Assembly: GCA_016841625.1 (NCBI GenBank)
Contig: JAENYU010000033.1
Location: forward strand, 1 to 37,469
Reading direction: 5' to 3'
Origin: Methanobacteriota archaeon
Lineage (GTDB): Archaea > Halobacteriota > Methanosarcinia > Methanosarcinales > Methanosarcinaceae
Length of the DNA stretch: 37,469 nt
Shown here piece after piece: positions 8,431-32,895 of the stretch. The notes under the pieces are model-generated. The model searched no databases, was not told the origin of the DNA, and saw nothing but the letters and a program-made list of their open reading frames with translations. The position numbers and the translations under genes are program-made. Each line of letters starts with the position of its first letter. The stretch's first letter is position 1.

Positions 8431-10236
8431 TTATTCCTTCTCCTTCAAGGCAAAAAGGTTTAGTGTCTCTCCGACGAGTTTGGAAGTTCTTGAATCGATA
8501 CTTTCGATATTCCATTTGTCAGTTTTTGCAAGGTCCTCATTCAGATAGAGGCCGTTTAGGTATCCGAGACAACGCCCCTGTCTATCTTTCCGGTCTCTTT
8601 TTTCTTCGAAACTTTTGTTTCCCAGATTACTGTTATAGCCTGAAATAGTCAGATTTCCAAGGCGATGGACATGCTGTTCCTGTAATTCTTTGGCGTTGTT
8701 TGCGTCCCCCTCAGCAATCATATCAATCCATGGCTGGGGGATGTTTTCACCCTGAGGGAAGATGTGTTCTATGGTCCAGACGTATCTTTTTCCTTCCATA
8801 GCCCAAAGGTCCACCATACTCTCCCGTGTCCTGGCTTTTTCTTCCAATGCACAAAGAATGAAACGGACAGCTCCGGAGTTTTCGGAATAAACATGTCCTT
8901 CCAGCTTTTTCCGGAATTCTTCATCGCTAGAGGAAACACCTGTCAGTTCCTGCTGGACTGCCTTTACAACGTCATCGCCTGTTAACCCCTCGATTTTATT
9001 GACGATATGCATGAACAGGAGGGTCAGATCTCTTGTAGGAGGTAGGTCTGTCAGGTTTCTCCTCACAAAGAAGCGGACAAGCAACCGGATGAGTTTGTCC
9101 AGGTGTTTTTCTTCCAGAAGGAAGCGTTCCTTTTCGACCAGTACGAATAGAAGGAATAGATATGAAGGAGCACCCTGGATGCGTTCAAGATCTTTTAATG
9201 GCCTGGAAAGAGAGGTATACTGTTCATCTTCCGTTCGGCCAAGGATGAAAGAATAACATCGACCTGCCTGAAGAATCCTTTCAAAAAAACCACTGGCATC
9301 GTTCACTATGAGTTTTTCATAAATCCGGATGAGGTTAGAACGTGTAGCTACCGAAACATTCTGGACATTCTTAAGAATTGGTTTAAATTCGTTGTTGAAG
9401 GCATTGTAATACTGCCGGAAAAATCTTTCCTGAACTGTATAATCGTCTCCCAGGTAATTCAAAAGAGAATTCCAGTCATTGAAATGCTGGTCAATATGTC
9501 CGCGGTCCATCTTCTCCAATTTAGCCAATAATTTATTTTTAATAAGATCGATAGCTGTTAGCGGCACACCTCTGTTGTTCAAGGATTCAAACAGTATGTA
9601 GGCGTCGGAGTGGCTTTCTACTTCGATCTTTACCAATGTGGCTTGACTAACTTTATCCCTAAATTCCATGATAGATGCCACCTTTTCCTCTGGCATCTCG
9701 GAGAGAGCGTTCAATCTTTCTTGGAAGTATCGGTAAGCCTTGAAGATCTTTCGGTTTCCGGCATAAGGAGGGGCATTAAAGGATTTGGCTACCTTAGCTT
9801 CTCCCAGAATGGAACGATAATCCTGCTGGTTACGGTTCTGGACCTGAGGAATCACACGGATCTGATCGGCATCTCTCTTGAGAACCAGCTTTCTTTTGAG
9901 ATTGAGCAAGTCTGTCTGCTGGTCCTCGGTAAGCGAGTCCCTGTGCGCATTCAGGCGTGAATAAACGGCAGCGAAAAGCAATGACAGCGTAGTTATCCGC
10001 TGCTGACCGTCGACCACCTCAAGTTTCTGGGTTGAGAGGGTATCAGGGCTTTGATTGATGCAAATGATGGAACCGAGGAAGTAACCACCATCATTCTCGA
10101 AAATATCGTCAAAGAGCTTTTCCCATTCCCATTTTCCCCAGGTATATTCCCGCTGGTACCGAGGAATAGCATACACAACGTTAGCTTCAATATCAAAAAG
10201 CTGAGAAATGGGATAGTTATTTACGGATTTGATCAT
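8431..10236 (-). CDS. GmrSD-like protein (DUF262 + DUF1524 HNH) embedded in the BREX operon
   Basis: The protein has 601 residues. The N-terminus has the DUF262/ParB-like motifs IPRYQREYTWG (24-34) and DGQQR (76-80), associated with NTP use. The C-terminal region has an HNH-type DUF1524 signature: EHIFPQ, then HRLGNLTISGYNSNLGNKSF and EEKRD. This is the domain order of single-chain GmrSD type IV enzymes, which cut modified DNA. The BREX-associated BrxU of enterobacteria belongs to the same family. Here the gene is not at the edge of the cluster. It sits between pglX and pglZ, its ATG overlaps the pglX stop (ATGA), and pglZ starts at the next base after its stop, so it is translated as part of the core operon. 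A likely role is restriction of phage DNA whose modification evades PglX-based recognition. Confidence 0.9.
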   Translation of the reverse strand: MIKSVNNYPISQLFDIEANVVYAIPRYQREYTWGKWEWEKLFDDIFENDGGYFLGSIICINQSPDTLSTQKLEVVDGQQRITTLSLLFAAVYSRLNAHRDSLTEDQQTDLLNLKRKLVLKRDADQIRVIPQVQNRNQQDYRSILGEAKVAKSFNAPPYAGNRKIFKAYRYFQERLNALSEMPEEKVASIMEFRDKVSQATLVKIEVESHSDAYILFESLNNRGVPLTAIDLIKNKLLAKLEKMDRGHIDQHFNDWNSLLNYLGDDYTVQERFFRQYYNAFNNEFKPILKNVQNVSVATRSNLIRIYEKLIVNDASGFFERILQAGRCYSFILGRTEDEQYTSLSRPLKDLERIQGAPSYLFLLFVLVEKERFLLEEKHLDKLIRLLVRFFVRRNLTDLPPTRDLTLLFMHIVNKIEGLTGDDVVKAVQQELTGVSSSDEEFRKKLEGHVYSENSGAVRFILCALEEKARTRESMVDLWAMEGKRYVWTIEHIFPQGENIPQPWIDMIAEGDANNAKELQEQHVHRLGNLTISGYNSNLGNKSFEEKRDRKDRQGRCLGYLNGLYLNEDLAKTDKWNIESIDSRTSKLVGETLNLFALKEKE

Positions 10237-13200: not shown

Positions 13201-13628
13201 AGCATACATGCAGCGTAACGGGAAGCTAATTCCCACCCGTTCTTTGCACCTTCATCGGCTGCCAGATCTTCGCACTCTTCGAGGGTCACAGATACCGGAT
13301 CAACTGGGTCTGGATACATGAGTAAGTTATTTTCTGCCAGGAAACGGGCAAAGAGCATACGGTGCCAGTGTTCGTATGCTACCTCTTCGATGAGACGGTC
13401 GATTTTTTGTGTTTCAGCTTTAGTATCCCGCTGGTCCCCAAACTGCCGGCCATGAGCACGAAGCTTCCGGCGAAGTTCTTTCTGTTCATCATTAAGATGC
13501 TTAAAAGGAGAAGCTTCACCAACGCCTAGCTGTCCCAATGATACGAGAGCAGCGGCTTCGGCAATATCCCTGGCTTCTTTTACCGTTTTTTCGAGTTTAT
13601 TTCTCAGTGTTTTTTCAAGAGGTTGCAT
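10233..13628 (-). CDS. pglX: BREX adenine-specific DNA methyltransferase PglX
   Basis: The protein has 1131 residues from the ATG at 13628, which has AGGGG 8 nt upstream. A TTG two codons earlier is possible but less likely. SAM-binding motif I is LDPCCGSGHFL at about residue 300, followed by the acidic-loop motif GLEIDQRCVELAA. The catalytic motif IV reads NVPY (about residue 485-488) rather than the usual NPPY. The C-terminal half is a large specificity-type region with a final basic segment. PglX performs N6-adenine methylation at a non-palindromic site, which marks host DNA in BREX. Its stop overlaps the start of the GmrSD-like gene. It lies 14-20 nt after brxC. Confidence 0.95.
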   Translation of the reverse strand: MQPLEKTLRNKLEKTVKEARDIAEAAALVSLGQLGVGEASPFKHLNDEQKELRRKLRAHGRQFGDQRDTKAETQKIDRLIEEVAYEHWHRMLFARFLAENNLLMYPDPVDPVSVTLEECEDLAADEGAKNGWELASRYAACMLPQIFRPDSPVFQLILPPEHQQKLERLLADLPPEIFTASDSLGWVYQFWQAKKKDEVNKSEVKIGARELPAVTQLFTEPYMVSFLLDNSLGAWWAARRLSEEDLKNASSEEELRKKVSLLGVPLEYLRFVKTEDGAWTPAAGTFDGWPENLSELKTLDPCCGSGHFLVAAFLMLVPMRVELEGLSGQDAVDAVLHDNLHGLEIDQRCVELAAFALALTAWSYPRGGGYRALPELHVACSGLSISTKKEDWLSLAGDNNNLRTALDELYKQFKNAPVLGSLVNPEAGLLRGTLIEMKWEDIFPLLARALSGEKDDEKAEMGVVAHGIVKAASLLAGKYQWVVTNVPYLARGNQNEELREFCEYKYSAAKNDLATVFFHRCMEFSLNCGTLTVVLPQNWLFMPRYELFRKRLLKETNWNLLARLGPGAFETISGEVVKAILLSISLNVPTSRHKFYGFKADVFSKANEKATFLCSGKQIPIIQKAQLTNPDSRILLDDLDNLPMLGKHATCIEGLSTGDMPQYVMKFWEISEKYSSWELFIQSVSESDYYSGRTDILLWEQAAGRLHRNPSTHNFPQEYMNDIKVLGNKGIRINLMGSACTIYTGEIFGKTGGTLIPFCDDELPAIWCYCNSSLFKHNIENINPSLYKSVGSFLKIPFDLDHWTRIAAEKYPNGLPKPCSEDPTQWLFHGHPTISDETLQVTVARLLGYRWPAELDAEMELSDEARAWVKKCDELISYADEDGIVCIPPVRGEAPAADQLLNLLAAAYGDSWSNDKLSELLKQADHAGKTLESWLREKFFTQHCKIFQNRPFIWHIWDGLRDGFAALVNYHKLDKKLLETLIYTYLGDWISRQKRDIDNGIDGAEEKLAAAENLKKKLELILEGEAPYDIFIRWKQIEKQPIGWDPDLNDGVRLNIRPFMSVPDVRKKGAGVLRDKPNINWNKDRGKDVVSAPWYNPDPKKHPNYKGKEGERINDYHLSLKQKREAREVAK

Positions 13629-13648
13629 TTTCAAATCCCCTGAATCAA

Positions 13649-16600
13649 TTACCGAATCACAACTGGTCCCTTGCCCAGAGCTGTCTTAATCTGTTCTTTT
13701 ACTTCCTGAACCCATACCTCAATGTCATCTTCGGTTTTGAAGGTACGGCGCGGGAGATCGATGGTTTGGGTTTTTGGTTCAATTGCTTTGGCTGCCACTT
13801 CTCGTGTTCGAGAAAAACGGCTACTTAGAGCATCAATACGGTCGCTCCAGGAATTAATTGGGTACTGTTTCAATGCCTTCAACAGCTCATCGTGTGTCCC
13901 GACAGTAATTACCGGAGCATCTGTAATGTCACACTTAACCAGCAGTCGCTCGTGTTCATCTTCAGGAAGTTCTTTCCAAGAGGAGTCTGTTTCTAGTTGC
14001 TGTTTCTGTTTGGCCAGTTCATCTGAATAGCGCTTTTGTTGAGCCGTCAGCTCCTTGCGCAATGTATCTTCAAGAGACTTAACAAGAGGTTGAATCGGGT
14101 CAGGGTCATCCAGAAGCATGCGTCGATGTTCGATAGCTTCAGCCTGCTGGCGTGCTTCCTGAGCCGCTTTCATTTCTCCTGTGTACCGAAGCAGTTCCTG
14201 AAGGCGGACCCAGGACGGCCAGAGCCTTTCGACACGTTCAGCCAGCTTTTTCCAATCGTCGATAGCTTGTGCGAGTTCGTCTTTAAGATTATAGAGAGAA
14301 AGAATCTGTTCGTTTCCGACTGCTAGGCGAATCTCGTCCAGTGATGAGGTATCCGGCAGCTCGGGCTTGGGAGCTTCACCCCCGGCGCGGTTGGCCAATT
14401 CCTTCATTTTATGAAGAAATTCAGGGATAGCCACTAGTTCTTCACCTTGTTTGAACTGGCAACCCAACTTTTGCAGGAGTCTGCGGACCTGAATCCTCTG
14501 AGGAGTCGTCACTATGGCCGACTCAATATTGAACATAGCCTTTCCTATGGCTTTTCGTTCCAGTTCCCTTGGATCAATACTCTGACCATGTTCGTCCTGC
14601 GCACGGATGAGACCTGCTACAAGAAGAACTTGGAGTCCACCATCTATTGCATCTCCAGACCACCCGAAATTTTCATCTTCAAAATAGCTGCGGATATCTG
14701 TCCCTTTCTTGCCCCCCGCAATAAATCCCAGAATAGTCTTGCATACCGGGTTTGTAGCTGGTTCACCCACGTAACCTACTGCTTTGAGGGCATCCGGGGA
14801 GCCTTTTTTGGCATTGGAGTATACTTTTTCCCACCCATTATGGTCAGCGATATGGAACTGGGGGTACAGGCGCTGGAGTGAATTTTCAGCGGCTTCAAGT
14901 ATCATACCCTGCAAGTCGTTTCCGAGAATCTCGTTCCCTCCTGCCTGAAATACACGGGCACCAGAGAAAGCTTCATTCAGCAGTTCATTTATCTTACCTT
15001 CAGCGCTCTGCTTTGTGGTTTCCATAGCAGCACGAGCTTCGGTTCCTTCGGGTGTATTGGGAACTCCCTTCTTGTCTAAGGTGGCGCTGGCAGCCTTGTA
15101 CTCGATGAGATGATGATGCAAATAGTCAGCTGAACGTTTAGGGATGAAGACAAAAACAGTAGGAGACTGGTTTCCCGCCTGCAATGCATCCGCGTGGACG
15201 GATTTGTGATCTATACCCCAATCTCGGATCCATACACAGATTTTCTTGTTGCTGTCCGAAGGCAACTGTGTATCAAAGATTGGATAAATATCACGTGAAA
15301 CCTTAGAGGTGCCCTGTTTAAGAGAAAGCTTTTTGACAATATCACCGAACTTGCGGTGAATACGATCATCGCGCTCCGTTTCAATGCGATGAGCTTCATT
15401 TGCTAGCTGGCTCCGCTGACTGGAGAATTCATCGTTCCAAGCGGCACTTTCCTTGGTCTGGATACGATATTCATCCCCTACTCTCATTAGCAGCTCGCAT
15501 TCTTTAAGGAGACTCGGTAATTTGCTCCTCAAGTAACTGCTACCCTCGGAAAGGTCTTCCACCATCAAATCCGCAAGAGTATCAATATTCGCTTTGATCC
15601 CAATTTCGTTATTACTCCCAGCAAGCCTATTGATAAGGAATACTAGGCCGCATGCCCTGGCCATAAGCTGTTCATCCTCAGAGCCCTTAATCCAGCTCAT
15701 GGTTTTCTCATGCACATTCCTGGGGATGATACGAGATTGCAACAACTTGTCAGCTGAATCAAAGTAGAGATAATCAGCCGTGACAACGTGTCCCAGTGAA
15801 TCATCAAGCCTGGTCTGGATGACTTTGTGGGCCATGCTGAGCTGGTTACGAAGCTGGCTGTCCGTACCTGTCTGGTCAAGCACTCTCAAGATGTTTTCCC
15901 AGAAGCGACGTCGAACCGGAAGGATTGGATAGTCCTGAGAAAAATACTGAATATCCTCCTGTCGATGCCCAATAGTTGTTCCCGCAAGATGCCTGGAGAT
16001 TTCCCCCAGATTGGTTTGCATCACTTGCTCAATCGTAGAAATGGCTTGGGGCTTCTTGGCCAAAATAACCTTGCGGATGACTGCATCTACATCGGAATCT
16101 GAAAGCTCAACACGAACCGTAAACCGACCTTCCAGCTTTTTCAGATTTGATGTTCCAGTTACTGCTGTCTGCCCGGTACCAATGAACAGGAGTTTACCGC
16201 CAATGTTCTTACAGCAAGCTTCGACGGCTTCCTGAACATCCATAGAACGCTGACTGTTTTCGCCTATATACTGCTGAACCTCATCAAGTATAATAAGAGT
16301 AAGTGGGAACTTCCCCTCATTTGTCAGAGCTTGACGGATAGTTTTGATCAAGTCATCGCTACTGATGTCCTTGACATAAGGATAAAGATTATTGAGAGTT
16401 TCTGCGCAGGTCTCAGGCGATGAGAATAAATTAGGCTTGGCTTGGATCAGTGCTTCATGAAGACCTTCAGCCACATATAAATTATCCAGTTCCTCTTGCC
16501 AATCGTACCCATTTTGTTCCACGTATCCCCGTACCCTCTCATATATCTCTTCATTCTTCAGCCACATCACGAAGCGGGCTACAGGATACTGCTCTGGAAG

Positions 16601-17077
16601 ATCAACTGACTTAAAGATGATGCGGAGGAGTGCCAGACGGACGCTTTCACTTGAACCGGCTCCTAAGGTCCCGGAAGCTGCATGAAGTCCACCATGCCTC
16701 TTTGATTGGGTGCTAAGTTCTTTTAGCAGGTCATTTATGTTCTTTGGGAGATTGGCAATGCCGCGTGCAGTGGCTCCATCCTCAAAGGTCACATCCGCCC
16801 ACAGGGAACGAAGCATTTTCACCAGGTGAGACTTCCCTGATCCATAGAAGCCACTGACCCAAACTCCTGGTTGCTGTGCTTCACTGATATTTTTCAGGTA
16901 GGTTTCCAGAATGTGCTCCATGCCTTTCTCATACTGTCCGTCACAAACAAAAGTCTCCAGCTCGTAGCGGAGCACCTCCATAGCCTGGCGGGTCTTATCA
17001 TCATTTACGGACGCTACACCCTCGTTTACGAGCTTTATAGTGGCCGGATCTTTCTGGTATATTTCCCTATTTTTCAT
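13649..17077 (-). CDS. brxC: BREX ATPase BrxC
   Basis: The protein has 1142 residues. Walker A is GFYGSGKSH at residues 76-84, Walker B is LIILDEVQQYIG at about 261-272, and a sensor strand reads LLFIGTGQ near 295. The C-terminal half contains long charged helices (around residues 950-1060, rich in Glu, Lys and Gln) likely to form coiled coil. This matches BrxC (DUF6079/PglY-related), the largest ATPase of type 1 BREX. The start ATG is preceded by GAGGGG at 7 nt. Unlike the tight spacing downstream, a 257-nt AT-rich gap separates it from brxB, so brxC-pglX-GmrSD-pglZ-brxL-orf150 may have their own promoter. Confidence 0.95.
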   Translation of the reverse strand: MKNREIYQKDPATIKLVNEGVASVNDDKTRQAMEVLRYELETFVCDGQYEKGMEHILETYLKNISEAQQPGVWVSGFYGSGKSHLVKMLRSLWADVTFEDGATARGIANLPKNINDLLKELSTQSKRHGGLHAASGTLGAGSSESVRLALLRIIFKSVDLPEQYPVARFVMWLKNEEIYERVRGYVEQNGYDWQEELDNLYVAEGLHEALIQAKPNLFSSPETCAETLNNLYPYVKDISSDDLIKTIRQALTNEGKFPLTLIILDEVQQYIGENSQRSMDVQEAVEACCKNIGGKLLFIGTGQTAVTGTSNLKKLEGRFTVRVELSDSDVDAVIRKVILAKKPQAISTIEQVMQTNLGEISRHLAGTTIGHRQEDIQYFSQDYPILPVRRRFWENILRVLDQTGTDSQLRNQLSMAHKVIQTRLDDSLGHVVTADYLYFDSADKLLQSRIIPRNVHEKTMSWIKGSEDEQLMARACGLVFLINRLAGSNNEIGIKANIDTLADLMVEDLSEGSSYLRSKLPSLLKECELLMRVGDEYRIQTKESAAWNDEFSSQRSQLANEAHRIETERDDRIHRKFGDIVKKLSLKQGTSKVSRDIYPIFDTQLPSDSNKKICVWIRDWGIDHKSVHADALQAGNQSPTVFVFIPKRSADYLHHHLIEYKAASATLDKKGVPNTPEGTEARAAMETTKQSAEGKINELLNEAFSGARVFQAGGNEILGNDLQGMILEAAENSLQRLYPQFHIADHNGWEKVYSNAKKGSPDALKAVGYVGEPATNPVCKTILGFIAGGKKGTDIRSYFEDENFGWSGDAIDGGLQVLLVAGLIRAQDEHGQSIDPRELERKAIGKAMFNIESAIVTTPQRIQVRRLLQKLGCQFKQGEELVAIPEFLHKMKELANRAGGEAPKPELPDTSSLDEIRLAVGNEQILSLYNLKDELAQAIDDWKKLAERVERLWPSWVRLQELLRYTGEMKAAQEARQQAEAIEHRRMLLDDPDPIQPLVKSLEDTLRKELTAQQKRYSDELAKQKQQLETDSSWKELPEDEHERLLVKCDITDAPVITVGTHDELLKALKQYPINSWSDRIDALSSRFSRTREVAAKAIEPKTQTIDLPRRTFKTEDDIEVWVQEVKEQIKTALGKGPVVIR

Positions 17078-17334
17078 CTATAACCCCTCTGAGGACTTCC
17101 ACGAACTCTCTATTTTTTTCAATAACTGATTGAGTATGCGATAATTTCATTAATTTGTTATCACATTCCAATTTTTTCACACTTCAATTACGATGAGTTT
17201 GAACTAAAGTAACTTAAATTATCCACATCATGGTTTTCATTTTCCAGATAAACGATTATTTAACCAAAATGAAGAAAGAAAAAAATAAAATTTGCAAATG
17301 AAATTTCATTTTAAAAGTTTTTTAATCTCCTCAC
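17078..17334. promoter_or_regulatory. brxB-brxC spacer with 16-bp palindrome
   Basis: This is the only long gap inside the BREX operon (257 nt). It is strongly AT-rich and contains no gene. A perfect palindrome AAATGAAATTTCATTT lies at 17296-17311, 24 nt past the brxB stop. It could be an operator or part of a terminator. Several AT-rich tracts could act as TATA boxes for brxC, and I cannot single one out. Confidence 0.45.
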
Positions 17335-17886
17335 TCAAAATTCCTTGTCTGCAGTAATCAGAACTGCGAGGTAGTCCCATCCATCGTGTCCATTCAGTAG
17401 ATAATAGTTGTTGTTTTCATAATTACCTGGGTAGAAAATCAATAACCTACCTGGTACAAGTGGCGCAATTTCAGCTACAACATCTCTTACATTCAGAAAT
17501 CCAAAAAGTGAACCGACCCCTTTCAAAGCAAAGACCGAGCCAGCATTAATGTCATTAACCTGAAGAAATGTCTCAAACTCCTGTTTTATATAGGCAAGAT
17601 ACCGGTGCATCAACCCGTCAACTAATTCTGGTTTCTGGAAGTATTTTTTTGCATAACGCTGTTTAGCAAACCAATCGGCAAAGGTATCTGTTAGATCAAA
17701 TAAGGCCCATCCATGTTTGACATTACGAGTCGCAATTTGAAACTCATCAATAGATGCCCGCAGGCGAAGTTCATCATTTTCATTGTACACACAGAAAATG
17801 ACACGTTGAGCCGCAGCCGCGTCACTCCGCCAGGGGATCGAAATATATCTGCTGTATGATTGTAAGAGTCTTTTAATTTTGCTCAC
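17335..17886 (-). CDS. brxB: BREX protein BrxB (DUF1788)
   Basis: The protein has 183 residues and begins at a GTG that overlaps the last 14 nt of brxA, with GGGAGTGG upstream of the start. The sequence (LFDLTDTFADWFAKQRY, then GSLFGFLNVRDVVAEIAPLV and GRLLIFYPGNYENNNYYLLN) fits DUF1788: a small alpha/beta protein with a buried C-terminal strand pair of the LLIFYPG type. BrxB is a small core component of type 1 BREX with unclear biochemistry. The family call rests on these motifs and on the position between brxA and brxC. Confidence 0.9.
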   Translation of the reverse strand: MSKIKRLLQSYSRYISIPWRSDAAAAQRVIFCVYNENDELRLRASIDEFQIATRNVKHGWALFDLTDTFADWFAKQRYAKKYFQKPELVDGLMHRYLAYIKQEFETFLQVNDINAGSVFALKGVGSLFGFLNVRDVVAEIAPLVPGRLLIFYPGNYENNNYYLLNGHDGWDYLAVLITADKEF

Positions 17887-18667
17887 GAATCCACTCCCTT
17901 TCCTGTTCTGCTAGATGGTTCGGGAATAAAACTTCCATAACATCTCCTACCCGCTTGAATACAATCCATCCTCGACGAGAGGCTTCTTCAGCCAGTTCAA
18001 TAGAACGGTCTATGGAACAATCAAGGAGGCGAGCATACTCTGTCCTGAACAGCCCTTCTCCTCGAACCCCGGTCAAGTATCCCAGAAACAGAGCATAAGA
18101 AACGGATCCTGGAGTTGCACTTGCTCTGTCACGAATCTTTTTTGCTTTTCCGATCAGATGACCGGACTTTGTCCATGTAGAATTGAGGTTCTGAGCCGTT
18201 GATTTCAGGGTTGCTTTGCTGAAACGGTCAGGAAACTTGTCCTCGATGTACTCTTCCAGGGATTCACGACTGACTCTCTCTCCTTCCGAATGGTGCATAA
18301 TGAAAGGAACGCTCATTCTGAGAATGGAATCTCGTGAATACGCACAGAGTAAAGTTAGAAGAGGTTGCCCATCGGGATCTCGCTCCCAGAAATACCTTAG
18401 GGCTCGAAAGATAGTAATTGAAGGGTCAAGTGAATATAGTTCTACAAGATGACTACCGGTGAGCTTTCTGGTTTTTCCTGAGCGTTTACCGAGGCAATTG
18501 TCTTCTTCAATAGCTTGGAGATAATCACTTTTGGAAGCAGATGGACTGCTAACATATGATAGTAAAAGTTTTATATCTTCCAACATCATTGTCCGGGAGG
18601 TATGTACACCACCTTTCTCAAACCGAAACCCAAAGCGGGATAATGTTTCAATTTTAGATTGATCCAT
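17873..18667 (-). CDS. brxA: BREX protein BrxA (DUF1819)
   Basis: The 264-residue protein is the first gene of the BREX operon. The N-terminus has GGVHTSRTMMLEDIKLLLSY and later GKRSGKTRKLTGSHLVELY. These resemble the DUF1819 arrangement of an N-terminal helical domain followed by an R/T-rich linker and a conserved leucine-rich helix. The C-terminus looks like a winged helix (LDCSIDRSIELAEEASRRGW, then IVFKRVGDVMEVLFP). BrxA from bacteria binds DNA and is small and all-helical. The start ATG has no strong Shine-Dalgarno. A candidate TATA box lies about 45 nt upstream. Confidence 0.88.
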   Translation of the reverse strand: MDQSKIETLSRFGFRFEKGGVHTSRTMMLEDIKLLLSYVSSPSASKSDYLQAIEEDNCLGKRSGKTRKLTGSHLVELYSLDPSITIFRALRYFWERDPDGQPLLTLLCAYSRDSILRMSVPFIMHHSEGERVSRESLEEYIEDKFPDRFSKATLKSTAQNLNSTWTKSGHLIGKAKKIRDRASATPGSVSYALFLGYLTGVRGEGLFRTEYARLLDCSIDRSIELAEEASRRGWIVFKRVGDVMEVLFPNHLAEQEREWIREQN

Positions 18668-19136: not shown

Positions 19137-20138
19137 ATGAGTCTTTGGCTGGTAAGAGCAGGAAGTCATGGCGCTCAGGAACAGGTAGCTCTGGAAGAAA
19201 ACGTAATCACCATCGCCTGGAATGAGTTCCCCGACCTTTCAAACTTAAAAGTAAAGAAAGACCTGGCAGAAATCTACAGAAAAGAGTATCCTGATGCCAG
19301 TAAGAACAAGGCTGGTAATGAAATAGGGCAGGTCTGGAGATTTGTCCATGATATCAGGATCGGTGATCTGGTTGCTCTCCCGCTCAAAACAGAGTCATCC
19401 ATAGCCCTGGGTGAAGTTGTTGGCGATTATGAATACAAAGAACTGTCCAATGACGTCAGGCATATAAGGCGTGTGAAGTGGCTAAAAACACTTCCAAGAT
19501 CTGCTTTTGACCAGGACCTGCTCTACTCTCTCGGGGCTTTCATGACCGTGTGCCAGATCCAGAGAAACGGTGCCGAAGAACGTATTTTAAAATTGTTAAA
19601 AGGGAATGCAAAGCAAATTGAGAGAGAAGAAACAGAGGAAGAGCTCAAGGAAGAGAGTATCGATATCGAGGAATATTCCCAGGATCAGATAGTGAAATAT
19701 ATCGAAGCAAAATTCAAGGGGCATGGGCTTGCAAGGCTGACTGATGCGATACTTAAAGCCCAGGGTTATGTTACCAGAGTTTCTCCTCCAGGCAAGGACG
19801 GAGGTATCGATATCCTTGCTGCACCCGGTCCTCTGGGTTTTGAAACGCCAAGGATTTGCATTCAGGTAAAATCCTCAAATACGCCTGCAGATGTAAAGGT
19901 CCTGAGAGAGCTCCAGGGTGTGATGTCAAAGGTAAGAGCGGAACAGGGGCTTTTCGTTTCATGGGGGGGCTATAATTCGGAAGCCAGGAAAGAAGCAAAG
20001 GACGCATTTTTCACTATACGCTTATGGGACCAGGGGAATATACTTCATGAAATATTCAAATATTACGAAAAGTTTGATGATGAGTTGAAGGCGGAGTTGC
20101 CGTTGAAGAGGATCTGGAGTCTGGTTGTTGAAGAATGA
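19137..20138 (+). CDS. Mrr-type endonuclease with N-terminal EVE/PUA-like domain
   Basis: The protein has 333 residues. The N-terminal ~150 residues (SLWLVRAGSHGAQEQVALEE, then ITIAWNEFPDLS and GDLVALPLKTESSIALGEV) look like an EVE/PUA-like fold that reads modified bases. An acidic linker follows (about 160-180). The C-terminal domain has the Mrr_cat pattern: a helix with LTDAILKAQGY, then GKDGGIDIL with catalytic Asp near 225, and QVK at 243-245. This is the D...QxK variant of the PD-(D/E)XK nuclease. Such architecture is typical of type IV restriction of methylated or hypermodified DNA. The gene is divergent from brxA. How it avoids cutting PglX-methylated host DNA is an open question. Confidence 0.88.
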   Translation: MSLWLVRAGSHGAQEQVALEENVITIAWNEFPDLSNLKVKKDLAEIYRKEYPDASKNKAGNEIGQVWRFVHDIRIGDLVALPLKTESSIALGEVVGDYEYKELSNDVRHIRRVKWLKTLPRSAFDQDLLYSLGAFMTVCQIQRNGAEERILKLLKGNAKQIEREETEEELKEESIDIEEYSQDQIVKYIEAKFKGHGLARLTDAILKAQGYVTRVSPPGKDGGIDILAAPGPLGFETPRICIQVKSSNTPADVKVLRELQGVMSKVRAEQGLFVSWGGYNSEARKEAKDAFFTIRLWDQGNILHEIFKYYEKFDDELKAELPLKRIWSLVVEE

Positions 20139-21506: not shown

Positions 21507-23344
21507 AGTATTGATAGTGTCGTAAAAGTCAAGAACTGATAAATTTATTATAAAAAGTTGCACATCTCTTTTCCCTTTTTTTCTTCATGGATCAACTAAT
21601 TTATATATGATTCTGTCTAATAATTATATCACAGAAAATACATACTTTTTGAGTGATAATATGTATTCCCCCATAAAAGGAAAGCAATCCACTTTCGTTT
21701 GTAGTCATGATGTTTACGAAAAACTTGTATCCACAAACCATAGGCTATACAAGATTAATGAGTTAGTAGATTTCACTTTCATAAACGAAGTGTGTTGCAA
21801 TCTCTACTCAAAAAATATGGGAAGACCTGTAACAAACACTCCTGAAATTATGTTCAGATCAGCTGTTGTTCAGTACTTCTATGACTACTCAGATCGAGAA
21901 ATGGAAGAGGCAGCACGCTATAACATAATGGTAAAATGGTTTATTGGTTTGAATATTGACGATTCTTCCTATGACCATAGTGCACTTGGACGTTTCAGAG
22001 ATCTTCTTGGGGAAGAAAGATGGAAAAACGTATTCTTCCGCCTATTAAAGCAAATCGAAAATGCTGGATTTGTTAAAGGTAAAGAGTATGTGGATGCTAC
22101 TCATGTAATAGCAAACATTGCAATTCCAGGTACAATAGACCTATTAAGACAGGGAATTAAGGATGTAATGAAAGCTATTCAGAAGATAGATTCAGATCTC
22201 TATGAGGAACTCGGTGGAGAAAAAACTGCCAATGATGATAAAAAAGTATACAAGATGAACTCTGAAGAAAAAGAAAGCAAACTGGTTGAAATGGTTGAAA
22301 AAGCCAGAGAGATAAACCAAAAATCCGAATATATTGGGGGAATAGTAAGCGAAAAAACTCAGCAGTTGAGACGTATTCTTAATGAGAATACAGAAGAAAA
22401 TGAGGGTAAAATCGTAAGAAAAAAAGATAAAACCAAAGACAGACTCGTAAGCATTGTTGACAAAAATGCTAGACATGGAGCTAAATCAAAGACAAAGAAG
22501 TTCATAGGTTACAAAGTAAACTCAATAATGTCTGAAGATGGATTTATAAAAAATATCAATGCAATTCCAGGTAATATCAATGATGGAGATGCACTCATCC
22601 CGCTTATTGATGAAAAGACAGAAAATGGATTTACTGCAAGTGAAGTGGTAGGTGATGCTGCTTATGGAGATGCTAATAACAGGAGTAAGTTGGTGTTGAA
22701 AAAGGTCACTGTAATAGCTCCCTTTAAAAAAGAGCTTAACAATCAGGGACTTTTTACACAAAGTAAATTCACCATCGAGAAAACTGGGATTGTATGTCCT
22801 GCAGGATGCAGGACAATGGTGTATACCCACGATAAGAATAATGAAAAAATTAAATTCCGTTTTAATAAAAAAGATTGTGGAAACTGCAAATTGAAGCCAA
22901 AATGTACTATTCAGGAAAGAAGAACATTTGAGATAAGTGAACATTATGAGCTACTGAAGAAAGCAAAAGAATACAATGGCACTGATCTTTTTAAGGAGGA
23001 TATGAAACAAAGATCACATATCGAACCAAAACAAGGAGAAATGAAAAGACATCATGGATTGCAGAGGGCAAAATATTGGGGACTTAAGAAAATGAATATA
23101 CAGGCAATATTAAGTGGAATTGTAGTCAATATAAAAAGACTGGTGACAGTGAATAGCTGTGGCTATCAAAATAGTTCATAAAAATATAGAGGAAGAATGA
23201 AAAATAGAAGAAAAGGACGAAAAGAATGAACCATTTTGATGAAAAATTCTTCAAAAATTGGTGGATATTTACAAAGTTCAAATTTTTGCGCTGAAATTTT
23301 TATGATGGCTAATAATTCGCTACTTTTACGACTCTATCAGTATT
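21507..23344. mobile_element. Complete IS1182-like insertion sequence with target duplication
   Basis: The element proper is 21513-23338 (1826 bp). Its ends are inverted repeats starting GATAGTGTCGTAAAAGT on the left and GATAGAGTCGTAAAAGT when the right end is read inward, 16 of 17 identical. It is flanked by a direct 6-bp duplication AGTATT at 21507-21512 and 23339-23344, which shows a clean, fairly recent insertion. It encodes one transposase. It landed 33 nt after the TBP stop. Confidence 0.92.
21661..23181 (+). CDS. Transposase, IS1182-like (DDE)
   Basis: The start at 21661 gives 506 residues beginning MYSPIKGKQSTF. An in-frame ATG at 21607 lies inside a TATA-like stretch (TTTATATATG), which makes it a less likely start. 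Typical family blocks are GRPVTNTPEIMFRSAVVQYF, YDHSALGRFRDLLG, the first acidic motif YVDATHVIANI, the second GDAAYGDANNRSKL, a cysteine cluster CPAGC...CGNCKLKPKC, and a C-terminal HIEPKQGEMKRHHGLQRAKY block with the third acidic residue. All catalytic blocks are present and the frame is intact, so the element may be active. Confidence 0.92.
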   Translation: MYSPIKGKQSTFVCSHDVYEKLVSTNHRLYKINELVDFTFINEVCCNLYSKNMGRPVTNTPEIMFRSAVVQYFYDYSDREMEEAARYNIMVKWFIGLNIDDSSYDHSALGRFRDLLGEERWKNVFFRLLKQIENAGFVKGKEYVDATHVIANIAIPGTIDLLRQGIKDVMKAIQKIDSDLYEELGGEKTANDDKKVYKMNSEEKESKLVEMVEKAREINQKSEYIGGIVSEKTQQLRRILNENTEENEGKIVRKKDKTKDRLVSIVDKNARHGAKSKTKKFIGYKVNSIMSEDGFIKNINAIPGNINDGDALIPLIDEKTENGFTASEVVGDAAYGDANNRSKLVLKKVTVIAPFKKELNNQGLFTQSKFTIEKTGIVCPAGCRTMVYTHDKNNEKIKFRFNKKDCGNCKLKPKCTIQERRTFEISEHYELLKKAKEYNGTDLFKEDMKQRSHIEPKQGEMKRHHGLQRAKYWGLKKMNIQAILSGIVVNIKRLVTVNSCGYQNSS

Positions 23345-26198: not shown

Positions 26199-26950
26199 CT
26201 GCGACGCTATATATATTTATATATGCTTCTTTTGAGCTATACTGTCAGGACGGCTGCTCGGCGGCGGAAAATTTCTCAGCTCCGAGAAGAGAAGGGTGAA
26301 TAGCTGGAAATTTCGGATTTTACGGGGTTTTCCTCGTTTTTATGGAAGTGGCGCTGTACCTTTCCGCCGCTGTCCTTAAAACACTCATTTGATCTCGTTT
26401 TGGAATAATAACTCAAAAATTTGAAATTATGATCTTGATCGTTCCCATCATGAAATAGGAATTGAAAACATCAGGATCAGTCTCATTATCATTTTCTGTT
26501 TTTATTTTCAACGTACTCCCCCGGCAGCCGATATCCAAAAGAGTTGAAAGTGAACGAAACTGAAGCGACCGAATAAATGAACCTCAAAAACCCAAAGAAC
26601 GACATCCCAAATCAGAAGCCCTTGAAAGTAATCCCGCTACCGCCTTCGAGACTTAACATTTAGCCCTACCAGAGGCAGCGGGAAGATTCCTCTTCGTCCG
26701 GTAAACACCGGCGCACTTCCTTATCAGCCAGAAAATCAGACATCTGCTGGTCAGGAAAATTTTCAGTTTTTCCTAATATCTTACAGTAAATATTTTCAGC
26801 ATTAGTTACCCCATCTCCACTCCATTTTGCTCCCAAAATCCCTCGCGCGGGCTCAGCACCTCAGTCCCGGCGGCTTCGCACGCTTCGGGTCTTCGGGCTT
26901 CACCGGAGTTCATTCCAACTTACGGCTTAAAGTGGTAAAGTGGAAAGTAA
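26199..26950. other. Long non-coding stretch before the DGR-like cluster
   Basis: No supportable gene is seen in this ~750-nt stretch. From about 26847 to the stop codon at 26951 it is a near copy of 28465-28577, the sequence past the other variable gene. It includes a run of CTTCG-type motifs (GGCTTCGCACGCTTCGGG). I checked it by eye for a template repeat resembling the variable regions and for reverse-transcriptase motifs and found neither. Confidence 0.5.
26847..26950. repeat. 3'-flank repeat copy A (partner at 28465-28576)
   Basis: This follows the stop of the 273-codon gene and is nearly identical to the segment past the 617-codon gene. Differences are a few substitutions and an 8-nt insertion in the other copy (an extra GTAAAGTA unit). 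In DGR systems conserved sequence just past the variable region marks the IMH and adjacent structure, so this conservation matters for the DGR reading. Confidence 0.8.
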
Positions 26951-27772
26951 TTACAATTTCCTCAGGACGCGGAAACCGAGGAACCTGCGGCGGTAGACAG
27001 GGACGTAGTAGCTGCGACTCGCTGACCGGCAGCGCCAGGCGTCGCCGTTCCAGCCGCCGCCCCGCAAGACACGGTCGGAGCTACTTCCACTTTCCCATGC
27101 ACCCCCATAGGAAGGAGCGCCGTAATAATATGAATGATAACGATCCTGACACAATTCCCAGACATTGCCATGCATGTCATAAAGACCCCAGGGATTGGGC
27201 TTCTTCTGACCAACAAGATGAGTCTTCTGATCTGAATTATCCCTATACCATGCATAATCCCCAAGTTTTGATTCACCATCTCCAAAGTAATACCTTGTTG
27301 TTGTCCCGGCACGACAGGCATATTCCCATTCAGCTTCGGAAGGAAGGCGGTATTTGTTTGTGCCTTCCTTTTCATTGAGCTTTTCGATGAACTCCTGAGC
27401 ATCATTCCAGGATACCTGTTCCACAGGAAGATCATCACCCTTGAAATATGAAGGGTTGCTGCCCATCACTTCACGCCACTGTTCCTGGGTAACTTCAAAT
27501 TTGGCAAGGTAATATGACTCTTCAATAGTGACTTTATGGACAGGGCCTTCGCGATCCATTTTCCCTTCTTCATCTGAGGGAGAACCCATCATAAATTCCC
27601 CTGCAGGGATCTCAACGAATTCCATGCCGATGGAGTTTTTGTAGTCAGTTTCTGGTCCAATTGAATCTTTGTAGTCATCTCCAGATTCTCCGGTTCCAGT
27701 GCAACCCAACACCCCGCAAAAGAGGAGCATAATTAACACGATACTAACTATTTTATTCACTTTTTCAACCAT
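26951..27772 (-). CDS. Surface lipoprotein with FGE/C-type-lectin domain, likely DGR-diversified
   Basis: The protein has 273 residues. The N-terminus is a lipoprotein signal peptide (hydrophobic stretch 8-19, lipobox VLGC with Cys 24). The rest is a formylglycine-generating-enzyme/SUMF1-type domain: FVEIPAGEFMMGS, EVTQEQWREVMGSNPSYF, YRLPSEAEWEYACRAGTTTR, NPWGLYDMHGNVWELCQD. The cysteine pair used by true FGE enzymes is not seen near the C-terminus, so catalysis is doubtful. Such domains are also the scaffold of DGR variable proteins. The C-terminal 25 codons before GFRVLRKL differ from the paralogue at 28577 almost only at codon positions 1 and 2. A secreted, anchored binding protein with a diversifiable ligand site is the likely role. 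Confidence 0.85.
   Translation of the reverse strand: MVEKVNKIVSIVLIMLLFCGVLGCTGTGESGDDYKDSIGPETDYKNSIGMEFVEIPAGEFMMGSPSDEEGKMDREGPVHKVTIEESYYLAKFEVTQEQWREVMGSNPSYFKGDDLPVEQVSWNDAQEFIEKLNEKEGTNKYRLPSEAEWEYACRAGTTTRYYFGDGESKLGDYAWYRDNSDQKTHLVGQKKPNPWGLYDMHGNVWELCQDRYHSYYYGAPSYGGAWESGSSSDRVLRGGGWNGDAWRCRSASRSYYVPVYRRRFLGFRVLRKL
26978..27052 (-). other. Candidate DGR variable region A
   Basis: These 25 codons run from the Trp of RGGGW to the residue before GFRV. Compared with 28604-28678, 13 codons differ and all 13 changes alter the amino acid. Of 21 differing nucleotides 20 are at codon positions 1 or 2. The 12 remaining codons are identical to the base. Nearly all variable codon pairs can be derived from AAC, AAT, AGG or ATC by changing only adenines. 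The residue pattern fits the known FGE-type variable region (W-N-x-N-A-R-N-C-R-S-A-N-R). Confidence 0.75.
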
Positions 27773-27817
27773 TATATCACCATCTAAAGATCTGCGTTAA
27801 AGCCCAAGTTAGAAAAC

Positions 27818-28354
27818 TTAGCACCGCAGGTTCGGTGGCTGACGCACGTCGTGCTTTTCCACGACTTCGCGAGCGATTGAGGCGAGCTTGCTTACGTCGA
27901 AACTGTGATGGATTTCGTAGACCTTGCTGTCCTTGCTCGGGAGCTTTTCTATGAACTCCTTGAGCCTCCCCACGTTGATGTCCATCTCGGTCTTGATGAT
28001 CGGGCAGACCACGCTGATAAGTTTTGGCTCCATATAAACAGAGCTGCGATTGCCCCCTGCATCCCTGTAATTTAGCTGGCATTCGATTTCCGTGCCCCTG
28101 GAACACATCAGGGGGTCAAAATAAACAGCTATGGACTTGGAAGTGCCTCCGCTTATGTTGCCCAGCCGGATTTTGCCGTTCCTGACTTCGTAGGGCGGTT
28201 CGTAATGGTCTATCCGTAAGAGGTCATCTTCAAAAAGAAAGTCGAGAGTGACGTCTGTTATTACAGAAGGAGCTTTGTTTGAAACAGACATCTTTAAGCG
28301 TATAAAACCCTGGTAGAATTCGGTTTCACGCTTAATCTCAATTTGAGAGTCCAA
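27818..28354 (-). CDS. Truncated paralogue of the 617-residue protein's N-terminal domain
   Basis: The 178-residue protein matches residues 1-171 of the protein at 28577-30430 throughout (ETEFYQGFIRLKMSVSN, RGTEIECQLNYRDAGG, INVGRLKEFIEKLPSKDSKV, AREVVEKHDVR). It then changes abruptly to an unrelated seven-residue end, QPPNLRC. The shared part looks like a beta-sandwich domain, perhaps Ig- or adaptin-ear-like, but I do not recognise a named family. The remainder of the ancestral protein is gone, and the lipoprotein gene begins just beyond. This suggests that a tandem duplication of a 617-type gene was followed by a deletion. Whether the short form is functional is unknown. Confidence 0.7.
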   Translation of the reverse strand: MDSQIEIKRETEFYQGFIRLKMSVSNKAPSVITDVTLDFLFEDDLLRIDHYEPPYEVRNGKIRLGNISGGTSKSIAVYFDPLMCSRGTEIECQLNYRDAGGNRSSVYMEPKLISVVCPIIKTEMDINVGRLKEFIEKLPSKDSKVYEIHHSFDVSKLASIAREVVEKHDVRQPPNLRC

Positions 28355-28464
28355 CCTGTTTTACCTCTCGACTTCAATTTTCACTATTTTCCGAGTACTT
28401 GATGGTGAATACTTTCAACATTTTTCTCCAGCTTCAATAGTATTAATTTTTGGAAGATTCCGGT

Positions 28465-28576
28465 GCGGGCTCAGCACCTCAGTCCCGGCGGCTTCGCACG
28501 CTTCGGGCCTTCGGGCTTCACCGGGGTTCATCACAACTTACGGCGTAAAGTGGTAAAGTAGTAAAGTAGAAAGTAA
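28465..28576. repeat. 3'-flank repeat copy B (partner at 26847-26950)
   Basis: This follows the stop of the 617-codon gene and is nearly identical to the flank of the 273-codon gene, including the CTTCG-rich part. Together with the gene similarity it shows that an original unit was duplicated in tandem. Confidence 0.8.
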
Positions 28577-30430
28577 TTACAATTTCCTCAGGACGCGGAA
28601 ACCGAAGCTGTAGCTGCGGATGACAGGGACGCCGCTGCAGCGATTCGCTGACCGGCAGTACCCGGCGATGCCGTACCAGCCACCGCCCCGCGAGACCCGG
28701 AGAGAGCCACTTCCACTTTCCCATGCATTTCCATCAGATGGTGCACCATTATAGTTATCATGCCACCTGTCCTGACACCATTCAAAGACATTCCCATGCA
28801 TATCATAAAGGCCCCAGGGATTGGGCTTCTTCTGACCAACTGGATGAGTACTACCTGAATTCCAGTCTTCATCATACCATGCGTAAACACCAAGTTTCGA
28901 TTCATCGTCGCCAAAGTAATACCTTGTTGTTGTCCCCGCCCTGCAAGCATATTCCCATTCAGCTTCAGATGGCAAACGGTACTTATCTGCCCCCTCCATC
29001 TGATTGAGTTTTCTAATGAACGCCTGAACATCATTCCAGGATACATGTTCAACAGGGCGATCATCACCCTTGAATTCTGAAGGATTGCTACCCATTACAG
29101 CCTTCCACTGCTTCTGAGTAATCGGATATTTCCCCAGGTAGAACGAATTTTTAATCGTGACTTTGTGAACCGGCCGCTCAGCACCACCATCCTCTGACCC
29201 CATCATAAACTCCCCGACAGGAATTTGCACAAACTCAATACCTTGGCAGGTCAGGGCCTTCGGAGCCCCGGACTTCCTGGCTTCTCTTTGTTTCCGGAGC
29301 TTTTCTGCCTCTTCTTCCTTCTGTTTCCTTAACCGTTCAAGTTCCTGCCTTAACTTTTCCTCTTCTTCTTTTTGCTTTTCCTGATGCTCTCTTTCCTGGC
29401 GCAAGCGATCTTCCTTTTCCCTCTGCCTCTGAAGCTCTTCAATCTCCTTCCTCAAGCGATCCAGTTCTTCCTGCTGCTTACGAAGAGCTTCAGACTCTCT
29501 ACCTTCGGTTCTGACGCCCGTTTCCACCCCCAGAGGTACTTCCCCTGCTCTTCCGGACGAGATGCTGGAACGCTGAATCACGCTATCCTCGACAATGATA
29601 TTCGTTGAACACATCCCACTCATATCGCAGTGGTCCAGAAGGCTGCTCCGCTGGATCACAGAATCCTTTATGGTTAGGTTGGTGACGTTCCCTCTCCCGG
29701 CAGCCCGGGCTTCAAGGCTGTTTTTCATGTTGCGCCCGACTTCAGCCAGAAAGCCGGCAAGGGATTTGGCACGTTCAGTTGCTGCAAAGAGTTCCAGGCT
29801 CTCCGTTTCGGACCTGAGGGAGATTTTTATTACAAGGTTTTCCTGATGGACTTTGGTTTTCCCGTAATACCAGACCTCACACTCTTTTTTGTCCTTCGTA
29901 TGGAGGGTGCGAATATGCCTGACATCGTGCTTTTCGACAACTTCCCTTGCGATGTGCACAAGTCTGGAGATGTCGAAGCCACTCTGGATTTCATAGACCT
30001 TGCTGTCCCTGTTCGGAAGCACTTCGATGAACTCCTTTAGCCTGCCTATGTTAATGTCGGAATCGGTGTTCAGGATCGGGCAGACAACACTGACCATCTT
30101 CGGTTCCATGAACGCCGAACCAAGCATTCCACCTGCGTCCCTGTACGTGACCTGGCAGTTGATCTCGGCGCCCCGTGAACACATGAGTGGGTCGAAATAG
30201 ACGGCAACGGACTTGGACTCCCCGCTGTGGATGTTCCCGAGGAAAATCTTGCCGTTCTTCAGCTGGAAATCCGGCTCGTGCCTGTCGATTCGGAGGAGGG
30301 CTTCTTCAAAATAAAAGTCAAGGATGACATCTGCCATTATTGAAGGTGATTCATTGGTGATAGACATCTTGAAGCGGATGAAGCCCTGGTAGAATTCGGT
30401 TTCTCGGAGAATCTGAAGCGTTGGATTCAA
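28577..30430 (-). CDS. Multidomain FGE/C-type-lectin protein, likely DGR-diversified
   Basis: The protein has 617 residues in four parts. Residues 1-171 are the beta-rich domain shared with the 178-residue paralogue. Residues 172-300 include a repeated motif DSVIQRSS (about 256 and 282). Residues 312-387 are a very charged coiled coil of Glu/Arg/Lys/Gln heptads. Residues 397-617 are an FGE/SUMF1-type domain (FVQIPVGEFMMGSEDGG, KYPITQKQWKAVMGSNPS, YRLPSEAEWEYACRAGTTTR, NPWGLYDMHGNVFEWCQD). No signal peptide is visible, so unlike its paralogue it is probably cytoplasmic. The C-terminal segment is the candidate variable region. The coiled coil suggests multimeric display of the lectin-fold domain. 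The ligand is unknown. Confidence 0.85.
   Translation of the reverse strand: MNPTLQILRETEFYQGFIRFKMSITNESPSIMADVILDFYFEEALLRIDRHEPDFQLKNGKIFLGNIHSGESKSVAVYFDPLMCSRGAEINCQVTYRDAGGMLGSAFMEPKMVSVVCPILNTDSDINIGRLKEFIEVLPNRDSKVYEIQSGFDISRLVHIAREVVEKHDVRHIRTLHTKDKKECEVWYYGKTKVHQENLVIKISLRSETESLELFAATERAKSLAGFLAEVGRNMKNSLEARAAGRGNVTNLTIKDSVIQRSSLLDHCDMSGMCSTNIIVEDSVIQRSSISSGRAGEVPLGVETGVRTEGRESEALRKQQEELDRLRKEIEELQRQREKEDRLRQEREHQEKQKEEEEKLRQELERLRKQKEEEAEKLRKQREARKSGAPKALTCQGIEFVQIPVGEFMMGSEDGGAERPVHKVTIKNSFYLGKYPITQKQWKAVMGSNPSEFKGDDRPVEHVSWNDVQAFIRKLNQMEGADKYRLPSEAEWEYACRAGTTTRYYFGDDESKLGVYAWYDEDWNSGSTHPVGQKKPNPWGLYDMHGNVFEWCQDRWHDNYNGAPSDGNAWESGSGSLRVSRGGGWYGIAGYCRSANRCSGVPVIRSYSFGFRVLRKL
28604..28678 (-). 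other. Candidate DGR variable region B
   Basis: This is the partner of 26978-27052, with the same 25-codon frame between RGGGW and GFRV. It encodes Tyr, Ile, Gly, Tyr, Asn, Cys, Ser, Gly, Ile, Ser, Tyr, Ser and Phe at the 13 variable positions, where copy A has Asn, Asp, Trp, Arg, Ser, Ser, Tyr, Tyr, Tyr, Arg, Arg, Phe and Leu. The codons between them and the 27 bases after them are identical in the two genes. Confidence 0.75.
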
Positions 30431-31143: not shown

Positions 31144-32895
31144 TTACACCTGAGTTTCCGTATCACAAGACTGGTTTTCGATTTCCTCCAGAATTTTCAT
31201 TACCCGCTGCCAGGTTTCTACGCCTCTTTCGTCCGAATACCGGTCAGGGTGTCGGATCACATAAGCCTCAGTATTGATCCTGTGCCCCCGTCCTAACACA
31301 ATTTCCGAGGCCTCTTCCATGAGCTCCTGGGCACGCCGAACAGTGTCTTCCACGTCCGTATCATCGCATTCGACGAGCAAAGCGTCATGCACCGGTGCGG
31401 CAATTTTGATTCCGTCCTCTGACAGCAGAATGCAGGCCACCCTGAGGATTTCCGCTCCCGTGGCCTGACACGGGAAGTTCTTGATGGTTCTCGCTTCTTT
31501 TTGGCTCCTCCCCACGGGGATGTATTGCCAGCCGTAGCAGGTTGTGATTTTCCCCAGTACAAGGGCCGAGTTCAGGACATGCTCACTCCAGTCCCAGTAT
31601 TTCCGGTAGACTCGCTTATGGTGGTGGATTAATTCTCCTGCGTATGGGGTCGGTTTCCCCAGCTGGAGTGACAGAGAATCCTTTGCCATTCCGTACTGAA
31701 CTCCCAGAGCGCACAATTTAAAACAGTCCCTGATGGCTCGATGAGTTTGTTTCGTTGCGTCGGGGGGCGCTGCTCCAGCCTGTTTTGCAAAAGACAGGTA
31801 CGGGTCCCCGGATTCATAGGCCACCTGCATTGCCTTGTCCCCGGAGAGGACGGCTGCGACTTCAAACTCCTGCTGGGAATAATCGATGGATATCAGTGCT
31901 TTTCCTGGTTCAGGTTGAATCAGACTTCGCAACCAAACTGCAGGCCCGAAGATGAATTTTGAGTTGCTGGGGGAGTTCCGCCCTGTTTTTGTGCCGAGGG
32001 GGGATAATAGAACCCTGTTCCTCCAATCCTGACCGACTGCCAGGTTTGAAAGTTTGAATTTCGACAATATGAAGCGCAGGTCGCGAAGGGCCTGGAGTTG
32101 CGGATAAGTCTTCGACATGTCCTTGAAAGTCTGGTCTTTGAGGTCCAGATTCCCGGCTTCAGTCCTGGGCCACGGAATTCCGTTCGAGCCGAGATATTTT
32201 TCGAATCTCGCGGCTTTGAAGGTTGTCCCCTCGTATACCCGATACTGGGGGTCCGTTTCCAAAATTAACCTCCTTTGAATTTCCACCCAGTTCCTTTTTA
32301 AGCGGTCAAGTGTTTTGCAGTCAATCGGCACCCCGTTATGTTCGATCTCGGCAATCACTTTCATATACTCTCCCCGGAATAGGGCCCGTGGGAAGTCGAT
32401 ATAAGGGGACATGCGCTTAAATAGTTCTGAAGTCTCCTTTACATCGCTTTCACAGTAGTCCAGGATTTTTTCCTTCTCCTCCGCAGAGTATGGGGCTCCT
32501 TTGAGGATTCTCAGCCTCATATCGTCTTTTTCCTGACTTTGTATTGTGGGAACTTCGAAGTATTCACAGGCATTCAAAAGCCCATTCTTAATACCAGGGA
32601 GCCCGTTTGTTAAGCACCTATATTCTGCATACAGGTCGATAACGTAAGCCGGAAAAGGCCAATTTAAGGCTAGGTGGCATGACCACTCCGCAGAACTGTA
32701 GTAGGCCACGTACAGGGTCGATTGGTCAAGAGGATAAGGGGGGACCATGGAAGACAGATTAGAGTCCTCCAGCCAGACCCTTTTGATTTCCCCTGAATTC
32801 AACTCCTTAAACACGACGCAAACAGGCCTCGGAACTCCTCCGGGGGAGGACTGAAACTCAAAGTCGACGACAACGACTTTAAAAAAGGGGAGCAT
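31144..32895 (-). CDS. Family A DNA polymerase with 3'-5' exonuclease domain
   Basis: The protein has 583 residues. The N-terminus is a DnaQ-like exonuclease: DFEF at 11-14 and YCESDVKET at about 147-155 (ExoI and ExoIII). The ExoII region (AYYSSAEW) shows Glu where Asp is usual. The polymerase domain has TKTGRNSPSN (about 302-311), motif A SIDYSQQEFEVAAVLSGD (336-353, catalytic Asp 338), motif B as RDCFKLCALGVQYGM (389-403), NFPCQATGAEILR (473-485), and motif C PVHDALLVE (501-509). There is no 5' nuclease domain. The layout is phage-like. Cellular archaea replicate with PolB and PolD, so a family A enzyme marks this region as a mobile replicon. Its ATG shares a base with the stop of the preceding gene (TAATG). 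Confidence 0.93.
   Translation of the reverse strand: MLPFFKVVVVDFEFQSSPGGVPRPVCVVFKELNSGEIKRVWLEDSNLSSMVPPYPLDQSTLYVAYYSSAEWSCHLALNWPFPAYVIDLYAEYRCLTNGLPGIKNGLLNACEYFEVPTIQSQEKDDMRLRILKGAPYSAEEKEKILDYCESDVKETSELFKRMSPYIDFPRALFRGEYMKVIAEIEHNGVPIDCKTLDRLKRNWVEIQRRLILETDPQYRVYEGTTFKAARFEKYLGSNGIPWPRTEAGNLDLKDQTFKDMSKTYPQLQALRDLRFILSKFKLSNLAVGQDWRNRVLLSPLGTKTGRNSPSNSKFIFGPAVWLRSLIQPEPGKALISIDYSQQEFEVAAVLSGDKAMQVAYESGDPYLSFAKQAGAAPPDATKQTHRAIRDCFKLCALGVQYGMAKDSLSLQLGKPTPYAGELIHHHKRVYRKYWDWSEHVLNSALVLGKITTCYGWQYIPVGRSQKEARTIKNFPCQATGAEILRVACILLSEDGIKIAAPVHDALLVECDDTDVEDTVRRAQELMEEASEIVLGRGHRINTEAYVIRHPDRYSDERGVETWQRVMKILEEIENQSCDTETQV

Follow-up and report, generated by a model that had tools for sequence, protein, structure and literature searches.

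Why should two neighbouring archaeal genes differ in their last codons only by changes that alter the encoded residue, and then become identical up to and beyond the stop codon? We examined two such genes, here called C28a and C28b, in a 37,469-nucleotide stretch (the window; GenBank JAENYU010000033.1). The window corresponds to contig C28 in the genome of an archaeon related to known methane producers; this assembly of 3.76 Mb in 63 contigs is 99.7% complete and belongs to the family of Methanolobus. Few known microbial systems for targeted protein diversification are as powerful as diversity-generating retroelements (DGRs), and an earlier note on the window had proposed that both gene ends are DGR variable regions (VRs). 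In a DGR, a template repeat is transcribed and then copied by a reverse transcriptase (RT) that misreads adenines. The copy replaces the C-terminal end of FGE-fold targets, so that ~13 codons come to encode random residues within an otherwise constant frame. Comparison with relatives indicates that the ends of C28a and C28b are very probably VRs written by a host-encoded DGR, the core of whose cassette has since been deleted here. Four genomes of the window's genus were compared; below, G000 is the window's genome, G001, G002 and G003 are sister species and G044 is Methanolobus psychrotolerans YSF-03.

Results

The ends of C28a and C28b have the signature of variable regions

The last 34 codons of C28a and C28b differ at 13 codons, none of them synonymously, with 12, 8 and 1 base changes at codon positions 1, 2 and 3. 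The preceding 41 codons differ synonymously at 11 codons and non-synonymously at 11, with 8, 7 and 16 changes at the three positions (Fisher's test, p = 0.0003 for codon position and p = 0.002 for synonymous versus non-synonymous differences). The non-synonymous differences at 13 codons, with 20 of 21 changes at positions 1 or 2, which the earlier note had reported, were reproduced codon by codon, and the identity that it had seen after the variable codons runs beyond the stop codon. In this comparison of genes within one assembly, the two VRs show no ordinary synonymous or non-adenine differences, one codon excepted. The FGE-type layout had also been recognized correctly: with the fold assigned from sequence, PF03781 matches both genes, and variable protein 1 of Treponema denticola (TvpA, 2y3c) is among the top two PDB hits for C28b. 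TvpA, like C28b, is a DGR target with an FGE-type C-type-lectin fold; unlike C28b it is bacterial, and the best matched stretch covers ~130 residues.

Three more genes of the window's genome carry the same kind of end (C36:107293, C12:2350 and C12:1411), and FGE genes lacking DGR-type ends on contigs C52 and C61 served as controls. Compared with the template of a relative, M. psychrotolerans, the VRs of C28a and C28b are changed at 22/33 and 21/33 adenines and at 7/59 and 6/59 non-adenines, respectively (p ~1e-7). The same test gave p values of 0.005 and 0.014 for two FGE genes lacking a DGR-type end.

Differences from template repeats in relatives are confined to adenines

Relatives were searched with a guessed template sequence. 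Template repeats whose variable codons read AAC were found in G001, G002, M. psychrotolerans and a further genome, G083; all lie outside target genes except that of G083, which is joined to a broken target. When each template was compared with the closest VR of the same genome, every difference fell on a template adenine in G001 (20/20), G002 (15/15), M. psychrotolerans (17/17) and the uncultured archaeon LFW-280_2_2 (24/24), giving 76 of 76 for the four pairs together.

In G083 (G083:C1:2563334, locus L079), a broken KAP-NTPase-type target is followed by the tail end of an FGE gene to which the template repeat is fused, an arrangement that looks like the outcome of recombination between a VR and a template.

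Two archaea retain complete cassettes

Complete DGR cassettes are present in M. psychrotolerans YSF-03 (NZ_MBKP01000045, locus L076) and LFW-280_2_2 (CABMHZ010000290, locus L195). The order is the same in both: FGE target, HRDC, Avd, RT, template and RNA tail. In LFW-280_2_2, HRDC (PF00570) and Avd (PF22296 and the NCBI Avd model NF033474) all score over the cut-off, as does the Pfam Avd model in M. psychrotolerans. The RTs, 68% identical to each other, carry GNLTSQ (M. psychrotolerans) or GSLTSQ (LFW-280_2_2) in place of the QGG.ISP of group II intron RTs, and the M. psychrotolerans enzyme is 36% identical to brt of Bordetella phage BPP-1 across 96% of its length.

The M. psychrotolerans element shares with the window a homologous FGE target, the VR frame, the downstream repeat, the start of the HRDC gene and the template-RNA tail; its HRDC, Avd, RT and template are intact, whereas the window has scars only. 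The LFW-280_2_2 cassette has the same order and is likewise intact, unlike the window. Its target shares with C28b the N-terminal domain (42% identity over 353 columns, from C28b residue 1) and the coiled coil. This target differs in two respects: its reading frame is interrupted by an in-frame stop that follows the coiled coil, and a hydrophobic, membrane-like segment precedes its FGE domain.

The window's genome retains scars of a cassette

Downstream of C28a, a frameshifted start of an HRDC gene is joined directly to the 3' end of a template RNA, and the template body, RT and Avd are gone from between them (26633-26802; all window coordinates of the elements are collected in the table below). 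The two hairpins of the RNA tail are supported across 14 sequences by two-sided changes at five pairs, with 95% of cells paired and covariation above that of all 500 shuffles. G001, G002 and G003 share this HRDC/tail junction, and the deletion is therefore probably older than the split of these species. Two other loci point to further loss. A second RNA tail, on contig C55 of the window's genome, has lost its template body. The 5' part of the C36 target is 93% identical to its G002 orthologue (C63), but C36 lacks the segment that carries template and tail in G002.

In targeted searches, which define all absences given here for the window's genome, no DGR RT was found: a query with the M. psychrotolerans enzyme (G044) returned only group II intron maturases or fragments. 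RVT_1 matches on contig C15 were considered as candidate DGR RTs and rejected, as their QGG.ISP motif and maturase-type ends identify them as group II intron proteins. Avd (PF22296) was not found in this genome either (1 of 112 family genomes was positive), HRDC is present as remnants only, and no template repeat was found, both template-RNA tails there being without a template body. The earlier note had suggested looking for an RT and a template elsewhere in the genome and had counted their absence as half of the case against a DGR; neither was found. A working DGR in the window's genome is therefore not supported, and the DGR origin of the gene ends is supported through the relatives and the scar.

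A gene at C58:39268 of the same genome (locus L013) runs from a coiled coil directly into the last VR codons (ENERLRKL*), followed by the usual downstream repeat, as if its FGE domain had been deleted.

Elements downstream of the variable regions

Both VRs are followed by a common 29-base tail (CGCGTCCTGAGGAAATTGTAATTACTTTC), assigned by position alone as a putative initiation of mutagenic homing (IMH) site. Beyond it lies an inverted repeat that occupies the position of the DGR hairpin/cruciform. Among relatives its stem shows two-sided changes at two pairs, with 90% of cells paired and a covariation score above all shuffles. An Rfam search of the region returned no family match.

Sister species pair templates with variable regions in the absence of a nearby RT

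In G001 and G002, a template lies 246-372 bases after a VR gene with no RT in between. The spacer from VR to template is homologous in three copies, and the RT-less arrangement is therefore older than these copies. At non-adenine sites, each sister-species VR is identical throughout to the template next to it, and it departs from the template of the other species at eight such sites. Since the VRs match their own local templates despite the common RT-less junction, writing probably continued after the RT had been lost in cis. Consistently, the two corresponding G001 genes differ at 15/31 third positions, as against 1/31 for C28a and C28b.

No DGR RT was found in the G001 and G002 assemblies, of which G001 is a single contig of 4,211,468 bases. 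Probably, the enzyme acted in trans before it was lost, or it sits off the chromosome; a weaker third option is that independent deletions with similar ends occurred instead of trans action. More tentatively, the sister species may harbour a reduced, non-autonomous DGR of template and VR that was copied to different places and served by an RT from a plasmid or virus, the window's genes being its end stage; we hold this to be possible rather than likely.

No close RT was found among viral contigs, plasmids and phages. In IMG/VR, neither the template pattern nor the template-RNA tail had an exact match, and the sole RT found was distant (35%). The RT of the Methanosarcinales virus vir525 (BK063673.1, 38309-39328), which adjoins a tail protein gene, shares 36% identity with the DGR enzyme of M. 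psychrotolerans and was rejected as the missing enzyme because its sequence is too distant. Separately, plasmid pMETHO01 of Methanomethylovorans hollandica (NC_019972.1) carries, near insertion sequence (IS) elements, an FGE gene (159628-160473) with 69% DNA identity to the C28b FGE domain; no RT is annotated in the stretch examined around it.

Other features of the window

Between the two targets lies a truncated gene that is probably a decayed third target, because full-length genes of its type occur at the related G001 locus. Elsewhere in the window, a BREX defence island occupies 4028-18667 (-) and comprises BrxA, BrxB, BrxC, PglX, a protein that matches PADLOC Orf5/HEC-06 models, PglZ and BrxL; a PDC-S02 candidate defence protein follows at 19137-20138 (+). 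An IS transposase gene is located at 21607-23181 (+), and a family A DNA polymerase gene at 31144-32895 (-), unusual on an archaeal chromosome, suggests an integrated element.

Table 1 Features of the retroelement remnants and their targets in the window
Feature	Position	Strand	Basis
C28a target gene, 273 aa, lipoprotein-like, C-terminal VR	26951..27772	-	FGE/C-type-lectin domain PF03781, E 1.3e-52
VR of C28a	26969..27052	-	codon comparison of the paralogues
Identical tail after the C28a VR, at the place of the IMH site	26943..26971	-	position
Inverted repeat downstream of the C28a VR (6-bp stem, one mismatch here)	26864..26891	-	place of the DGR hairpin/cruciform
HRDC 5' remnant after C28a, ~31 first codons, frameshift and stop	26711..26802	-	tblastn with the M. 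psychrotolerans HRDC protein
Template-RNA 3' remnant with two hairpins, fused to the HRDC remnant	26633..26715	-	77% to the G002 RNA tail
Truncated gene, 178 aa, paralogous to the N-terminal domain of C28b	27818..28354	-	full-length genes of its type at the related G001 locus
C28b target gene, 617 aa: N-terminal domain, coiled coil (by eye), FGE domain, VR	28577..30430	-	PF03781
VR of C28b	28595..28678	-	codon comparison of the paralogues
Identical tail after the C28b VR, at the place of the IMH site	28569..28597	-	position
Inverted repeat of the same kind downstream of the C28b VR	28482..28509	-	comparison with relatives
HRDC first 15 codons after C28b, second scar	28377..28421	-	tblastn E 0.17, weak on its own; order matches that of the related G001 locus

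Discussion

The proposal that the ends of C28a and C28b are DGR variable regions gains support from the adenine rule in four relatives, from two complete cassettes and from the cassette scar in the window. In the history that we favour, the ancestral cassette of this lineage would have comprised, in order, target, HRDC, Avd, RT, template repeat and template-RNA tail. Deletion of its core in the window's genome would have left a scar and targets whose ends were already diversified. Writing of the C28a and C28b VRs probably last took place after the lineage had separated from G001, with a single template serving both and with no RT left in cis at the locus; the enzyme would have come from elsewhere, its source later being lost or lying outside the assembly. 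The DGR would be inactive in this organism today.

Several observations weigh against this history. The AGG/TAC codon, already singled out as a misfit in the earlier note, does not fit a template AAC and stays a misfit, although AAA in the lost template would accommodate it. In G001, a second VR, which is older, shows 10 adenine changes together with 4 others. Moreover, RT, Avd and template are absent from the window's genome, and the mechanism there rests on relatives; the assembly is a draft in 63 contigs, and the cassette core could reside on a small element that was not assembled. This last point leads to a variant that differs from the favoured history only in present-day writing, namely that an active DGR on a plasmid, virus or unassembled contig still diversifies the targets in trans. 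It would fit the draft state of the assembly, the clean template/VR pairs that lack an RT in G001 and G002, and the agreement of the C28a and C28b VRs at all third positions but one, which indicates that writing was fairly recent. However, an assembly that is 99.7% complete yielded no RT, Avd or template, the single-contig G001 likewise lacks an RT, template bodies have been lost at two other loci of the window's genome (C55 and C36), and the searches of viral contigs, plasmids and phages returned no close enzyme. We therefore consider continuing diversification conceivable but doubtful.

Could the same pattern arise without reverse transcription? Positive selection on a fast-evolving ligand-binding face would account for 13 codon differences that are all non-synonymous and lie in the C-terminal part of the FGE domain. 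Yet it leaves unexplained why all 76 changes relative to a separate, non-coding repeat are confined to adenines in four genomes, why no synonymous change occurs beside a flank that has 11, and why a cassette scar is present; we regard it as very improbable. Gene conversion among FGE paralogues, which would shuffle existing ends with no new mutation, could draw on the nine FGE domains of the genome, and a conversion tract could account for the tail that C28a and C28b have in common. But the variant-codon combinations differ between the paralogues of this genome, with none in common, and the relatives show mutation from a template. Conversion may act additionally; as the source of the diversity it is improbable. 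Taken alone, neither positive selection nor paralogue gene conversion was accepted as a full explanation, and writing by a DGR whose cassette core was later deleted is the reading that we retain.

Archaeal DGRs, partial DGRs lacking an RT and diversification in trans have been published (PMC4372165, PMC10907252). The partial DGRs of Nanoarchaeota DUSEL4 resemble the present loci in having a target, VR and cis elements in the absence of an RT, with traces of adenine mutagenesis, and were read by their authors as fossils or remote targets; unlike the window's genome, those genomes also contain intact DGRs, and the targets are unrelated orphan genes (PMC4372165). Thiohalocapsa PB-PSB1 likewise has incomplete loci, with targets best explained by trans activity, and FGE/C-type-lectin targets fused to NTPase modules, but it is a bacterium with intact RTs whose diversification is visible in population data (PMC10907252). 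In our literature search, Methanolobus and diversity-generating retroelements were not found together; surveys such as Paul 2017 lay outside that search, and we do not claim priority. The kind of system is known. What we did not find described in the literature searched is this lineage, its graded decay and its RT-less template/VR cassettes.

As for function, the variable face presumably binds a ligand. C28a, with a lipobox-like LLFCGVLGC at its N-terminus (by eye), is probably anchored outside the cell. C28b has no obvious membrane segment, and a hydrophobic stretch before the FGE domain was seen by eye in C12b of the window's genome, as in the LFW-280_2_2 target. In G001, two neighbouring VR targets are a KAP-NTPase-FGE fusion and a caspase-FGE fusion (L053:5616-10721). 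These fusions match the conflict-system setting in which FGE/C-type-lectin DGR targets have been placed (PMC7159879; PMC10907252), and they point to a role in conflict or self-recognition.

Collectively, our results describe a host-encoded DGR lineage in the Methanolobus family, of which a named strain, Methanolobus psychrotolerans YSF-03, keeps an intact cassette. They make available a graded series that leads from an intact cassette to a scar, and in these archaea the service of a template by an RT encoded elsewhere becomes testable.

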